A stretch of 64,000 bases of DNA. It comes from Desulfococcus multivorans (GTDB lineage: Bacteria; Desulfobacterota; Desulfobacteria; Desulfobacterales; Desulfococcaceae). The stretch covers positions 3,321,001 to 3,385,000 of the forward strand of contig NZ_CP015381.1 in assembly GCF_001854245.1 (NCBI RefSeq), written 5' to 3'. The notes beneath the pieces are model-generated. The model did not search any database, was not told the DNA's origin, and saw only the letters and a program-made list of their open reading frames with translations. A program made the translations under genes and the position numbers. Positions within the stretch are counted from its first letter, which is position 1; each line of letters starts with the position of its first letter. Positions 53,258-61,833 of the stretch are shown here, piece by piece.

Positions 53258-55237
53258 CTTGGGTTTGATTTTTGTAAGAACACAAAATCGCGCGAAGGCT
53301 TGACGCACGGGCATCCGCGCGAATGAACGAGATTCAGCGTGTGTCTACGAAATCGGGCTGTTTTCAGGTCAGTTTTTCCAGCTCGATGACCTGCTTTGGA
53401 GGGGTGATCTTTAACAATTTAAGAATGTTGATGGTTTTGGCGGGCAGCTCGTTGCGCATGAGCACACGGAAATTTAAATTGAAAAATTCTGTGATCTGGA
53501 GCTCATCCAGCGCGCCTTGGATCTGGTGCCAGGGCCTGTCGCATGCCAGCTCGGCGACACGCTCGATCAGGAGCGCCAGGACACAGATTTTGACGTGGGC
53601 CTCGATGCGCCGGGATGCCCAGTGGTACATGGGCATCATCCTGATCTGGGTCCGCTTCAGGGAGCGGAAACAGCGTTCGATGACCATCAGGCCTTTATAG
53701 CCGCAGGCGGCGTCCTCCAGGCTGATGGTGTCGTCGTTGGTCTCGAGGACCCACTTGCCGTCATAGGTTTCCGCTTCCCGTATTTTGCCCCGGTCGATGC
53801 GGACCTTGTTGGTCTTGGTGACCTTCAGGTAGCGCTTGAAGCGGCGGGAGGCCAGCAGCTCGATGGCCCATTGGGCGGTTGCCGATGCATCCTTGTGGGA
53901 CTCGAGCTCCTTCTCCAGGACGGCGACGGTCATCTCCCGGTGCTTGCGCTGCCGTTCGGCCTCCCTGGGGTTGTAGCAGAGGATATAGCGCCTGCGGCGC
54001 TCGCCGTCGCCGACGACAACCTCCTTTGCATGGAGGTTGTCCTTGAAAACGGTGTAGCGGCCGCGCTTGCTCAGGACTTTTTTGCGGATCTCGGCCACGT
54101 TGGACATGCGGCAGGCCAGGAGGTACTTGCCGCAGGCCCTGGCCAGTTCCCTGCGGTTGTCCTCGGAGTTCATGCCCGAGTCGGCGACAAACATGGCACG
54201 GCCCAGGTTCCAGCCCCTCAGGTCCGCCCGAACCTTCTCGACGGTCGCCACGTCGGAGGTGTTGCCCGGCAGCACCCAGCTGCGCACGGGGATGCCCTCG
54301 CGGGTCACCGCCAGGGCGACCACCACCTGGGGGCTCCACGTGCCCTCCTTGGAGTGGCCGAACTTGCGCAGGGTGGCATTGGCGTACCGGTCGGGGTCGT
54401 CCTCCTGGTCCACATGAAAAGACGCGGTGGTCGTATCATAGAAGATCAGGTCGACCTCCAGATTGAAGAGATCGGCGATATGAAAGAAGATGGCCTCCTC
54501 GATCTTGTCAGCATGTTCGTACAGCAGGTCCATCGCCTCGTACATGTGTTTGAGTTGGAGACCGTCGCAGGAAGGGAGATAGACCCTGGAGAGCCAGCGG
54601 TCCCATACGCCAAGCTTGGACTCGGGATCGCACAGCCGGTTGGCGGTCATGGCCATCAGGGCTCTTTCATAGGGAACCCGCAGGCCTTTGGCGTTGACGA
54701 CGCCTTCCAGTGTCTTTTTCAGTCCGAGCCGCTCCCAGAGGGCCTCGATGACCATCGGGCAACCAAAGGCTCGGGTTTTCCGGATCTTCAGGTCTTCGAA
54801 GAAGCCCGCTTCGCCCGGCGGTGTGGCGCTCAGAACTTCATCATCAAGAGGATCGACGACGGTTATCCCGCATACCCGGGCGATGGATCTGCACAGCCGG
54901 ATCAGCTCCTGCCGGTCGAGCTGGTCGGCACGGCCGAAGTTGTGGATGATTCTGGCAACCGGCTTGCGGGTATCCGGGTGGCGCTCGTTATGCGCCAGCT
55001 GGAAATATTCGACCACGGAGCCGTCTTTGTTCTTTCGCTTCGTAGACCGCAGATACATGTTTACGTTTATGGCATTTTATTCCCTTTGAGTCAATAGAAA
55101 ATTGATAATTCGTGTGCCTACGCGTTTTTGAGATTGAGAGAAGGCCGGGTAGGCACAATAGCTTGTAATTATTAGGGGCGGGTGGTGGCGGCGGGCCAAT
55201 TTGGGGTGGTTTTCTGCCTACAAAAATCAAACCCAAG
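53258..55237 (-). mobile_element. complete IS1634-like insertion sequence (1980 bp)
   Basis: The ends are 19-bp perfect inverted repeats: 53258-53276 reads CTTGGGTTTGATTTTTGTA and 55219-55237 is its exact complement. It is flanked by TTCAT duplications and holds one intact transposase gene read on the minus strand. About 105 bp of non-coding sequence lie at one end and 180 bp at the other. Perfect ends, duplication and intact gene point to a recent, possibly active insertion. Confidence 0.92.
53364..55058 (-). CDS. tnp: IS1634-family DDE transposase
   Basis: 564 residues. N-terminal MYLRSTKRKNKDGSVVEYFQ is typical of this family. The IS4-like RNase H core has DLIFYDTTTASFHVDQED (first Asp), FVADSGMNSEDNRRELARAC (second Asp) and a C-terminal YKGLMVIERCFRSLKRTQIR with the catalytic Glu in the Y-x2-R/I-E-x-x-F/R-x6-K context. 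Full length, no frameshift. It cuts and joins the element ends described above. Confidence 0.93.
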   Translation of the reverse strand: MYLRSTKRKNKDGSVVEYFQLAHNERHPDTRKPVARIIHNFGRADQLDRQELIRLCRSIARVCGITVVDPLDDEVLSATPPGEAGFFEDLKIRKTRAFGCPMVIEALWERLGLKKTLEGVVNAKGLRVPYERALMAMTANRLCDPESKLGVWDRWLSRVYLPSCDGLQLKHMYEAMDLLYEHADKIEEAIFFHIADLFNLEVDLIFYDTTTASFHVDQEDDPDRYANATLRKFGHSKEGTWSPQVVVALAVTREGIPVRSWVLPGNTSDVATVEKVRADLRGWNLGRAMFVADSGMNSEDNRRELARACGKYLLACRMSNVAEIRKKVLSKRGRYTVFKDNLHAKEVVVGDGERRRRYILCYNPREAERQRKHREMTVAVLEKELESHKDASATAQWAIELLASRRFKRYLKVTKTNKVRIDRGKIREAETYDGKWVLETNDDTISLEDAACGYKGLMVIERCFRSLKRTQIRMMPMYHWASRRIEAHVKICVLALLIERVAELACDRPWHQIQGALDELQITEFFNLNFRVLMRNELPAKTINILKLLKITPPKQVIELEKLT

Positions 55238-57639: not shown

Positions 57640-57660
57640 TGTACAAAGGAGGTATCCAAA

Positions 57661-58053
57661 ATGATCAGAAAATCATTGGCAACGGCAATTCTGGTGCTTA
57701 CCGTACTTGGCGTTTGTGTGACGGCAACAGCCGAAAACAGGGCCATCCTTGCGGTTGCCGCTGACGGCGCAGCGGCAACCGCTCAGGTCGGTACGACGGC
57801 GGCCCGATCCCCCTATTTCCTGCTGTTTGACCGGAATGGAGAACTGTTGGAAGCCGTGAAAAATCCCTATGTCGCGGAACACCGAAACGCCGGCCCCAAA
57901 GTCGTCGACTTCCTGTCGGCCAGAGGGATTCACACGATAGTTGCCGGTGAGTTCGGTGCAAAGATGATTGCGGCCATGCAGCAAAATGACATGGCTTTTC
58001 ACACGGCCACAGGCCCTGCGGCAGATGCCGTAATGCTGATGAAAAAGAAATAG
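57661..58053 (+). CDS. secreted NifX/NifB-type cofactor-binding domain protein
   Basis: 130 residues. A signal peptide (about 1-24, cut near TATAEN) precedes a domain that matches the dinitrogenase iron-molybdenum cofactor family (PF02579): ILAVAADG, ARSPYFLLFD, HRNAGPKVVDFLSARGIHTI, VAGEFGAKM. Members are normally cytoplasmic, so export is unusual. No cysteine follows the signal peptide; His and acidic residues could bind ligand. RBS AAAGGAGG. Middle of the envelope transport operon. Confidence 0.82.
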   Translation: MIRKSLATAILVLTVLGVCVTATAENRAILAVAADGAAATAQVGTTAARSPYFLLFDRNGELLEAVKNPYVAEHRNAGPKVVDFLSARGIHTIVAGEFGAKMIAAMQQNDMAFHTATGPAADAVMLMKKK

Positions 58054-58815: not shown

Positions 58816-60114
58816 ATGGGTTTCTGGATTTCTCTTCTGTTGCTGATGGTCTCCCTGGCCGACCCGACCGGCGCCGAAGAATTTGACTTCATCATCTCCG
58901 AAGCCCAAAAAAAGCCCTACGCGGTGGGGGGACGATTGGAATCCCGCTTCATCTACCACCGACTCGATGAGGATGCGATCCGTTACAGCCCCAATGACCA
59001 CCTGAAGGATGTCGGGGACGATACGCATGAATGGCGGACATCGGCGGAACTTTCCGGCAGCTGTCAATACGGCGTCTTTCAGGCGGGTCTGCTCACCCAC
59101 CATCAATTCGAGGAGACGCATGAGGACGACGGATGGGACCACAAAATATACGAGGGCTACATGTCGCTGACCCCTACCCCCCGCCTGACGGTGGACGCCG
59201 GCAAAAAATCGATACTGTGGGGCAAAGGGTACGCCTGGAACCCGGTTGGATTCATCAACCGGCCCAAAGACCCTGACGATCCGGCTCAAAATCTTGAAGG
59301 ACGCACGTTTCTGGGGGTCGACCTCATCAGAAGCTTTGCAGCCGGTCACCTGAGCAACATCGGGGTTACGGCGCTGCTGCTTCCGGTCATCGATGACTGG
59401 GCCAATGCGGAATTGGGCGAGGGGGGTGATCTGAACATTGCGCTCAAGCTTTACCTGCTATGGCATGACACCGACCTTGACGTCATCTGTTTTGACGGCC
59501 CGGACCAGCCCGCCGGCTTTGGATTCGATTTTGCCAAAAACCTTGCCGAAAACATCGAAGTGCACGGCGAGCTGGCGGTGCGGAAGGATGTGCCGCACAT
59601 GGTCCCCGATGCCGATGATCTTCCCCGGGAATCGCGGGAAGATCAGATCAGCCTGCTTCTGGGCGCGCGCTACCTCAACACGATCGACACCACTTTCATC
59701 GCGGAATATTATCATAACGGCGCCGGCTACGATCGCGGCGAGATTGAAGACGTGTTTGTGCTCAAGAAGGCCGCATTCCGCGAGTGGCAGACAACCGGCG
59801 ACGCCTCGGTCATGGAGCGTATCGCCCGGACCACCCGACCTTACGATCGGCAGCGGAATCCCGGGAAGGATTACGGCTACATCAAAATCTCCCAGAAGGA
59901 GCCTTTCGACCTGTTGTACTTCACCCCCTGGGTGGCGGCAGTCGTCAACCTGAGGGATTTCAGCTTCAACCTCCAGCCGGGTCTGACCTGGGCGCCCGTG
60001 ACCGATCTGGAATTGAATCTTCGCGTGGGGATCCCCATCGGCCCGGCGTACACCGAATTCGGCGAAAAACCCGATACGTATCGACCCGAAGTCTGGGTAC
60101 GCTACTATTTTTAA
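58816..60114 (+). CDS. probable outer-membrane beta-barrel protein
   Basis: 432 residues with signal peptide (about 1-20, cut near TGAEE). The rest alternates short amphipathic strands with charged loops and ends in the aromatic C-terminus VWVRYYF, a signal for the Bam machine. I do not recognise a named porin family. Starts 4 bp after the LolA-like gene with a weak RBS, so it is probably coupled. Likely the outer-membrane end of the system. Confidence 0.75.
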   Translation: MGFWISLLLLMVSLADPTGAEEFDFIISEAQKKPYAVGGRLESRFIYHRLDEDAIRYSPNDHLKDVGDDTHEWRTSAELSGSCQYGVFQAGLLTHHQFEETHEDDGWDHKIYEGYMSLTPTPRLTVDAGKKSILWGKGYAWNPVGFINRPKDPDDPAQNLEGRTFLGVDLIRSFAAGHLSNIGVTALLLPVIDDWANAELGEGGDLNIALKLYLLWHDTDLDVICFDGPDQPAGFGFDFAKNLAENIEVHGELAVRKDVPHMVPDADDLPRESREDQISLLLGARYLNTIDTTFIAEYYHNGAGYDRGEIEDVFVLKKAAFREWQTTGDASVMERIARTTRPYDRQRNPGKDYGYIKISQKEPFDLLYFTPWVAAVVNLRDFSFNLQPGLTWAPVTDLELNLRVGIPIGPAYTEFGEKPDTYRPEVWVRYYF

Positions 60115-60124
60115 AGGAATTTCC

Positions 60125-61099
60125 ATGACCGATGCCTTAATCGTCAAAGACATGGCCAAGCGTTTTGAAAAGATCGATGCCGTCTCCGGCATTTCATTTC
60201 GTGTTCAAAAAGGAGAACTCTTCGGCTTTCTCGGCCCCAACGGCGCCGGAAAAACCACCACCATCAACATGTTGACGGGATTGGCGCGCCCGGACACGGG
60301 AACGGTCCGGATCGGGGGCATCGACTGCACGGACAATCCCCGGGCAGCCCAGCATCTCGTGGGCGTGGTGCCGGACGAAAGCAATCTGTATGCGGAACTC
60401 ACCGGTTTCGACAACCTGTGCTTTTGTGCTGCGCTTTACGGCATCGGCAAGGCCGAACGACAGACCCGGGCCCGAACACTTCTGGAAACCTTTGGTCTGA
60501 CCGAAGCGGCCGGTCGCAAGTTCGGAAAGTATTCCAAGGGGATGAAGCGGAAGCTCACCATCGCGGCGGGGATCATTCACCAGCCCGAAATCCTTTTTCT
60601 GGACGAACCCACCACAGGCATCGACGTCGCCAGCGCCCGACAACTCCGTCAGCTCATCGCAGATCTGAACAGAAACGGAACCACCATCTTCCTGACCACC
60701 CACTATATCGAGGAGGCGGAAAGACTCTGCGGCCGTATCGCATTCATCGTCTCAGGGCGTATCGTCCGCATCGACACGGTCGAGAATCTGCTCCAACCCC
60801 TCCAGGAGAAACACGTGGTTCGGATCACATGCGCCAACCCCCTGACCCACCGCCGGCAAATCCTCTCCGAAACCTTTCCAGATCTCAAATTCACTCTCTC
60901 CGGGCAGGATGTTATCCAGGTGGAAAGCGACGGGATCGTCCGCGTAGGCACACTGGTTCGATTCCTGGAAGACCAGGGGGCGGAGGTTCTGGAGGCCAGA
61001 CGAATGCGACCGAGCCTTGAAAACATCTTTGTGCGGATCACCGGCATCGAGGCCGAGGCCATGCGAAGAGAAAAAGAGAAAAAAGGGGGGGAGCCATGA
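60125..61099 (+). CDS. ABC-2 exporter ATPase (CcmA/DrrA class)
   Basis: 324 residues. Walker A GPNGAGKTTTI (about 39-49), signature YSKGMKRKL, Walker B LFLDEPTTGIDVASAR and H-loop TTHYIEEAE. The C-terminal ~90 residues are the regulatory extension of DrrA-like ATPases. AAAGGA RBS; the stop overlaps the permease start by 4 bp. Substrate unknown. Confidence 0.92.
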   Translation: MTDALIVKDMAKRFEKIDAVSGISFRVQKGELFGFLGPNGAGKTTTINMLTGLARPDTGTVRIGGIDCTDNPRAAQHLVGVVPDESNLYAELTGFDNLCFCAALYGIGKAERQTRARTLLETFGLTEAAGRKFGKYSKGMKRKLTIAAGIIHQPEILFLDEPTTGIDVASARQLRQLIADLNRNGTTIFLTTHYIEEAERLCGRIAFIVSGRIVRIDTVENLLQPLQEKHVVRITCANPLTHRRQILSETFPDLKFTLSGQDVIQVESDGIVRVGTLVRFLEDQGAEVLEARRMRPSLENIFVRITGIEAEAMRREKEKKGGEP

Positions 61100-61833
61100 A
61101 ACGATGGATCGCTTTCTGGAACATTCTGCTCAAGGACATGCGCACCTACTACCTGAAGCCACCCAATGTCAGCTGGGGACTCGTCTTCCCCCTGGCATGG
61201 ACGGCGATGTTTTTCATCAGATCCGGCACCGGCACCGAAAGCATCCCAACGCTGCTCCCCGGCGTGACGGCAGTCTCCATCCTCTTCGGCACCACGTCGA
61301 TGCTGGCTGTGACCGTGACCTTCGAGAAAAAGACCCGTTCCTTCGAGCGGCTGCTCCTCGCGCCCATTCCATTGCATCTGTTGATGCTGGCCAAAACCAG
61401 CGGCGCCATTTTTTTCGGTGTGGCCAACGCCTTCGTGCCGATCGTCATGGCGGTTTTCCTCACCGATCTCTCGCAGGTGGCCTGGAGCGTTTTCTTTCCG
61501 GCGGTTTTCCTGATCGCCGTGGCCTCCGCCTTTCTGGGCCTTTTCATCGCCGTGGCGGTGAGCGAGGTGTTCGAAGCCCAGACCTTCTCCAATTTTTTCC
61601 GCTTCCCCATGATATTCCTCTGCGGGCTCTTTTTTCCCATTGACAGACTGCCTGTATTTCTCAAACCGCTTTCGTATGCACTGCCCCTGACCTATGGGGC
61701 CGACCTGCTCCATGGGGCCGTCCACGGCGGGCATATCATGCCCTTTTCCCTTGACCTGTCCGTTCTCGGGGTTTTCTGTGTTGTATTGTTCACAGCAAGC
61801 CTCTACAACATCAATCGCAAATGGATCGCCTGA
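61096..61833 (+). CDS. ABC-2 type permease
   Basis: 245 residues with six predicted helices and the ABC-2 signature region (VAVSEVFEAQTFSNFFRFPM, FLCGLFFPIDRLPVFLKPLS, ALPLTYGADLLHGAV). Partner of the preceding ATPase. Its last 13 bases overlap the start proposed for the peroxiredoxin-like gene. Confidence 0.9.
   Translation: MKRWIAFWNILLKDMRTYYLKPPNVSWGLVFPLAWTAMFFIRSGTGTESIPTLLPGVTAVSILFGTTSMLAVTVTFEKKTRSFERLLLAPIPLHLLMLAKTSGAIFFGVANAFVPIVMAVFLTDLSQVAWSVFFPAVFLIAVASAFLGLFIAVAVSEVFEAQTFSNFFRFPMIFLCGLFFPIDRLPVFLKPLSYALPLTYGADLLHGAVHGGHIMPFSLDLSVLGVFCVVLFTASLYNINRKWIA

Follow-up and report, generated by a model that had tools for sequence, protein, structure and literature searches.

An exported NifX-fold protein as an optional companion of a Lol-like transporter operon in Desulfococcus multivorans and related loci

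Proteins of the PF02579 family have been studied for their handling of FeMo-co, thioferrate and Mo-Cu-S clusters, for the most part within the cell. One gene of the marine sulfate reducer Desulfococcus multivorans raises the question of whether this fold is also put to use in the periplasm. Within the window (the whole stretch of 64,000 nucleotides of contig NZ_CP015381.1 that was analysed), an original prediction had pointed to a NifX/NifB-type domain with an N-terminal export signal, placed between a transporter and a LolA-like protein, and had suggested a periplasmic ligand-binding role. We find that the exported NifX-fold protein is real and recurrent; a clade of this kind, tied to one transporter operon, would add a periplasmic branch to metal-sulfur handling. 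The features of the locus are collected in table 1.

Table 1. The operon and its upstream neighbour, in window positions
Feature	Coordinates	Strand	Evidence or remark
DDE transposase (PF01609)	53364-55058	-	upstream of operon, opposite strand
LolD-type ABC ATPase, 235 aa	55689..56396	+	PF00005 110.8 bits; best NCBIfam match TIGR02211 LolD, 216.6 bits
LolE/FtsX-type permease, 416 aa	56389..57639	+	MacB_PCD 61.2, FtsX 48.7, TIGR02212 lolCE 129.4 bits
Shine-Dalgarno sequence of the exported NifX-fold gene	57645..57653	+	sequence
Exported NifX-fold (PF02579) protein, 130 aa	57661..58053	+	PF02579 38.2 bits; AF2 model; ORP 2wfb Z 17.3
Predicted signal peptide, residues 1-24	57661..57732	+	hydropathy rule; cleavage A24/E25 by eye
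LolA-like periplasmic carrier, 248 aa	58065..58811	+	PF17131 144.1 bits
Outer-membrane beta-barrel, 432 aa, 18 predicted strands	58816..60114	+	AF2 pLDDT 88.7
Second ABC ATPase (DrrA-like)	60125..61099	+	TIGR01188 300.9 bits, cut-off 312.45
ABC-2 type permease	61096..61833	+	PF01061 88.5 bits

The gene is an ATG-initiated open reading frame of 130 codons, whose start lies 7-8 bases downstream of the Shine-Dalgarno sequence AAAGGAGGT. Its product begins with MIRKSLATAILVLTVLGVCVTATA followed by EN, that is, with a basic n-region, then a strongly hydrophobic core (top 10-residue Kyte-Doolittle mean 2.99) and an A-T-A end, the cleavage site and the absence of a lipobox being assessed by eye; for want of that lipobox, a lipoprotein reading was rejected. 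Signal peptides were called throughout with a simple in-house hydropathy rule, and domains were termed exported-type when they reached at least 115 bits against a profile built from the mature part only, so that the signal is not built into the definition. By this rule, 30 of the 33 exported-type domains carry a signal, as opposed to one of four divergent relatives and one of 86 other PF02579 domains (L070, a borderline case). The three signal-negative exported-type members are one at a contig edge (L042), one whose start region holds no open signal (L040) and an apparent chimera (L169/L189). In the last of these, a murA-like 5' end, recognized by eye, is joined out of frame to the NifX-type domain at the end of a contig, and L189 is probably an assembly chimera. 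A further copy with a signal, the second in L079, was left out of the count, its domain match being split; the two exported NifX-fold genes of that locus stand in tandem within a single operon (L079:7228-8157).

Signals are lacking in 85 of the 86 PF02579 domains outside the clade and in three of the four divergent relatives, as would be expected if the window gene encoded an ordinary cytoplasmic PF02579 protein whose hydrophobic stretch reflects a mis-called start or chance. However, the Shine-Dalgarno sequence stands at the called start, and the signal recurs in those 30 exported-type domains, which are of diverse sequence. We therefore rejected the cytosolic reading with a mis-called start, and consider a cytoplasmic protein very improbable. 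The export signal first noticed in the window protein is borne out, as a Sec-type signal by this rule, and export to the periplasm, as predicted from sequence, is well supported.

The assignment to PF02579 was confirmed as well. Indeed, a Pfam-A scan placed the window protein in this family (Nitro_FeMo-Co) with an E-value of 1.8e-9, its score standing well above the gathering score of 26.3, and all 18 members of alignment A3 (the window protein and 17 relatives) matched it at E 0.01 or better. The host genome holds five PF02579 matches, among which the window gene is the weakest (38.4 bits, versus 64-88.7 for the others). The AF2 model, computed from 18 sequences, reaches a pLDDT of at least 90 at 93 of 130 residues, including most of the mature part, and, in the structural check proposed with the original prediction, it displays the RNase-H-like NifX/ORP fold: the best match, Orange Protein (ORP), is tied within 1 with TM1816 (1o13, Z 16.9), followed by NafY (1p90, Z 12.6) and NifX in the NifEN complex (9ian, Z 11.2), whereas unrelated structures score Z 7.5 and below. 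None of the NifX, NafY and MrpORP equivalogs of NCBIfam was matched at its cut-off, the sole match up to E 0.1 being MrpORP at 15.7 bits for a cut-off of 450.

The closest structural counterpart, ORP of Desulfovibrio gigas, superposes with an rmsd of 1.9 over 105 residues and is likewise a single PF02579 domain from a sulfate reducer. ORP is cytoplasmic. The two proteins share 21% identity, and the window protein differs in its signal peptide, in its AAR motif in place of FGR[C/A], and in its location in a Lol-like operon.

This operon brings together a LolD-type ATPase, a LolE/FtsX-type permease and a LolA-fold carrier, as does the LolCDE-LolA lipoprotein pathway, but it has a single permease gene, a barrel of 18 strands and, in some loci, a NifX-fold protein. 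The carrier is a clear LolA-fold protein, its closest solved structure being 3buu (NE2245, E 3.1e-28). The ATPase and the permease, in contrast, both score below the cut-offs of the Lol equivalogs (307.75 bits for LolD and 362.45 bits for LolC/E), and the system is thus Lol-like in outline, without having been found to be a Lol system. Nor does it conform to MacAB-TolC, in which MacB unites ATPase and permease in a single chain and a MacA-type adaptor belongs to the operon: here ATPase and permease are separate genes, and no adaptor family was matched among the operon proteins scanned. The barrel model resembles the OprD/Occ porins (Z about 23) and AlgE (Z about 22), a likeness of architecture only at about 10% identity with the porins; no Pfam family was found for the window barrel, and none consistently across the 38 members of alignment A5. 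The window permease is 50-77% identical to nine relatives in alignment A2. The DrrA-like ATPase located 3' of the barrel was seen there in close relatives only, with high-scoring copies in L036 (= L088), L037, L092 and L094.

We then considered whether the exported proteins form a group of their own, as had been asked of them. A search of 395 genomes of the phylum with an eight-member profile returned 11 matches of at least 123 bits, the window protein included, the next best reaching 94 bits. In a tree of 123 domains (105 columns, many forks open), the 33 exported-type domains and the four divergent relatives fall on one side of a branch with an SH-aLRT of 98, and the 86 other PF02579 domains on the other side. 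The separate clade is therefore recovered, though it takes in the divergent relatives, signal-less ones among them. These relatives are heterogeneous: three of the four have no signal by the simple rule, one of which (L087) is followed downstream by a binding-protein ABC transporter that carries a TOBE domain, whereas L084 (= L056; 93 bits) is exported, stands outside any Lol-like operon, and groups within the exported type.

The gene order originally described, with the transporter before and the LolA-like gene after, was found again, the neighbours being an FtsX-type permease and a LolA_like (PF17131) protein. The further suggestion that exported members always neighbour FtsX-type permeases was largely upheld. 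Indeed, all 16 members from protein searches with readable flanks (the window protein, six from the first search and nine from the 395-genome search, two more being cut by contig ends) lie beside a LolD-like ATPase and an FtsX permease, and the same link occurs in two loci labelled Aminicenantes; the exceptions are L084 and L189, the latter probably an assembly artefact. The operon link of the NifX-fold protein is thus well supported.

The converse does not hold. A scan with the permease alignment returned at least 556 relatives, the best 80 of which were analysed. Among these, 77 have the LolD-like gene, 79 the LolA-like gene, 68 the barrel and 65 all four core genes, many of the missing genes falling at contig ends. 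The loci among these best 80 of at least 556 are mostly labelled Desulfobacterota, and also Nitrospirae, Aminicenantes, Omnitrophota, Auribacterota, Krumholzibacteriia and others, labels which may err as most loci come from metagenome bins. In the same set, the NifX-fold gene is present in 18 loci and absent from 46, the operon being cut by a contig end in the other 16; it is hence missing from 46 of the 64 readable operons, and the transporter must work without it. A 51-bit match in L146, an ordinary PF02579 gene by its sequence, was rejected and scored as absence. The 18 carriers hold the gene either between permease and LolA-like gene (12 loci) or upstream of the ATPase (six loci).

Of the 62 loci in which no NifX gene was visible, 50 had their whole genomes searched for one. 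Three gave a result: a gene that lies next to LolD and FtsX on a different contig (L188, genome G493), a partial copy before another LolA-like/barrel pair (L190, genome G498), and the gene within the apparent assembly chimera L189 (genome G509). In the other 47, nothing scored within the range of the exported type. On the permease tree, from which L036, L042, L074 and L076 (copies of named loci) and L080 were left out, presence of the gene changes 15 times, 12 of these changes being forced by starred branches. The NifX-fold gene is accordingly a module that operons can do without and that has repeatedly been acquired, lost or exchanged, and conflicts between the FtsX and NifX trees over L148 and L082 make exchange between operons possible. 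Two observations concern the composition of these loci: the operon of L100 is followed by an MMPL/RND transporter together with another LolA_like (PF17131) gene (L100:7305-10587), which places two LolA-type routes side by side, and in L134 the slot of the NifX gene is occupied by another small protein, whose start resembles a signal and which has no trustworthy Pfam match.

What would such a protein do in the periplasm? Judging from their families, the LolD-like ATPase and the LolE/FtsX-like permease may lift a hydrophobic or amphipathic cargo from the inner membrane, the LolA-like protein may carry it, and the barrel may receive it at the outer membrane. The NifX-fold protein might then bind an anionic metal or metal-sulfur species (a thiometallate, an iron-sulfur fragment or a soft metal ion) and, as scavenger, chaperone or sensor, couple metal stress to the export system. 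We tentatively favour, with somewhat less than even confidence, a periplasmic binder of metal or metal-sulfur species serving as optional accessory of the Lol-like trans-envelope system. Periplasmic ligand binding, as suggested at the outset, thus stands for its location, given the clade-conserved signal and the envelope operon, whereas the ligand itself is extrapolated from the fold and from family precedent.

By analogy with ORP, MrpORP and IssA, this ligand would most likely be a metal or a metal-sulfur species. ORP binds S2MoS2CuS2MoS2 and MrpORP a 3Fe-4S cluster, whose ligand has been proposed to be CXHFGHCE, a motif found where the domain begins (PMC6345978). IssA of Pyrococcus furiosus is a thioferrate storage protein of the NifB/NifX family (IPR003731) that binds an anionic iron-sulfur polymer (PMC5524996); it shares its NifB/NifX-family domain with the window protein, but forms cytoplasmic bodies and bears a cationic tail of 70 residues, where the window protein is tailless. 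FmpB of Desulfovibrio magneticus RS-1 combines a NifX/NifB domain with a magnetochrome domain and takes part in magnetosome formation (PMC4287615). Given the topology that we infer for it, the fold would have been used outside the cytoplasm there as well, and it is the one precedent that we found for this domain outside its usual setting; FmpB is a multidomain protein with PDZ and magnetochrome domains, whereas the window protein consists of one exported domain only and is encoded in a transporter operon. Among the PF02579 domains collected for the tree, very long open reading frames of L015, L021 and L024 (873-1085 aa, same order), with two or three such domains each, cluster together and are possibly FmpB/magnetosome-like, which is a guess. 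A further comparison may be offered by MorP of Desulfovibrio alaskensis, a Mo-Fe-S protein of some 15 kDa in the periplasm of a sulfate reducer.

The residues that set the exported type apart bear on whether a ligand is bound at all. Position 47 is A in 31 of 33 exported-type domains and F in all 63 other domains compared; position 102 is M in 29 of 33 and A in 63 of 63; position 44, D in ordinary members, is S in 32 of 33 (G in the window). Alanine at positions 47, 48 and 95 marks the exported type. The FGR[C/A] strip that is typical of ordinary members, without formally defining them, is absent from the window protein, which reads A47-A48-R49. The strip distinguishing the exported clade (44, 47-48 and 102) is taken to sit at the ligand site, and positions 47-49 correspond, in our reading, to the motif of MrpORP.

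These changes are what would be expected of the main rival to a metal or metal-sulfur binder, namely a structural adaptor that has lost ligand binding, its RNase-H-like module docking on the periplasmic domain of FtsX or on the LolA-like protein and tuning the transporter. Indeed, the ordinary strip is altered at F47 in 33 of 33 domains and at G48 in 29 of 33, cysteines are depleted (0.45 versus 1.57 per domain in other members), the operon linkage is tight, and the gene is optional, as its repeated changes on the FtsX tree indicate. Apart from positions shared across the family in general, N68 and G99 for instance, no invariant ligand residues were found in the exported type. However, the general family core is kept (A77-G78, G99 and N68, with R or K at position 49 in 17 of 18), no fusion to FtsX or to the LolA-like protein caught the eye, and an adaptor does not predict the enrichment of metal-stress genes around the operon that is described below. 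We regard the adaptor as rather unlikely, while it still calls for more attention than the other alternatives.

The genes lying upstream of the operon were surveyed at positions U1-U3 with simple in-house gene calls. Seven loci had been set aside for doubtful gene calls, as had nine proteins (edge fragments, one protein containing unknown bases, one locus), and 120 of 129 proteins, from 46 loci, entered the census. The most frequent Pfam families were PF13801 Metal_resist (5), ArsR-type HTH_5 (4), LTXXQ (4; a related model, which picks up Metal_resist proteins as well, that of L100 among them) and ArsP_1 (3); Pyr_redox_2, HTH_20 and Cytochrome_C7 were level with the last, and MFS_MOT1 (molybdate transporter), CDF and SBF occurred twice each, together with several non-metal families. 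The NCBIfam models matched by these upstream neighbours included ArsR/SmtB metalloregulators (4), the SaoE (3) and SO_0444-type (3) efflux models and many kinase models. In place of a downstream-gene control, for which no more than 46 genes remained, base rates were established for PF13801 and ArsP_1 only, from 57 and 62 matches in 35 genomes of about 129.7 Mb: at 1.1 kb per gene, 0.06 upstream matches are expected for each, with Poisson probabilities of 5e-9 and 4e-5, values to be read in the light of the two families having been chosen after seeing the census and of neighbours within one locus not being independent.

This enrichment characterizes the operon in general and not specifically those operons that bear the NifX gene. 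Metal_resist lies upstream in L100, and also in L077, L079 and L081, which were picked by eye for likeness; among the 10 NifX-bearing loci whose upstream genes were part of that survey, it is known in L100 only. The immediate upstream neighbour in the window is a transposase and no metal gene, and the original upstream genes may therefore have been replaced, separated or lost.

Recurrent Metal_resist genes could also point to a different function, a periplasmic metal or sulfide sensor serving neighbouring regulators (ZraSR-like or ArsR), in the manner of Spy/ZraP rather than of a transport protein. Among the best 80 of at least 556 loci, histidine kinases of one cluster are found in 10 and a sigma-54 regulator in six, and L134 offers the example of another small exported protein in the same slot. 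The kinase cluster, however, shows no clear preference for gene-bearing loci (three of 18, namely L100, L110 and L114, versus seven of 62 others, many loci being short), and no kinase gene was seen by eye near the window's operon in the list of open reading frames from 50 to 64 kb. A sensor is thereby decidedly unlikely in our judgement.

Returning to the binder of metal or metal-sulfur species, two possible correlates were considered and set aside. The idea that presence of the exported gene tracks sulfide production was rejected, as dsrA is detected at E 1e-20 in 13 of 18 genomes with the NifX-fold gene and in 33 of 46 without (Fisher p 1.0), and above the curated cut-off in 11 of 18 and 29 of 46, respectively; a sulfide-specific ligand thus gains no support. 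A basic pI was dropped as marker of an anionic ligand, the median being 9.3, versus 9.2 in the LolA-like partners. A more specific proposal, quite unlikely as it stands, is that the protein would be dedicated to chaperoning inorganic metal-sulfur species (thiometallates, thioferrate, metalloid sulfides) in the periplasm and would feed or gate the Lol-like export line; if true, it would give anaerobes a route for metal-sulfur material, or for lipids bearing it, out across the envelope.

Among the papers listed in searches of the open-licence literature, we found no description of the operon or of an exported single-domain NifX clade. The NifX-fold clade would provide a first point of access to a Lol-like system of four genes that recurs across loci.

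Two kinds of loci deserve mention for their upstream genes. The operons of L092 and L094 are close relatives of the window's operon, lack the NifX gene, and are preceded by MOT1-type genes and ArsR regulators (L092:3783-5036 and L094:963-2162). In L139, a CDF transporter with a C-terminal PF02579 fusion (L139:3229-4446) adjoins a stand-alone PF02579 gene, upstream of a Lol-like operon.
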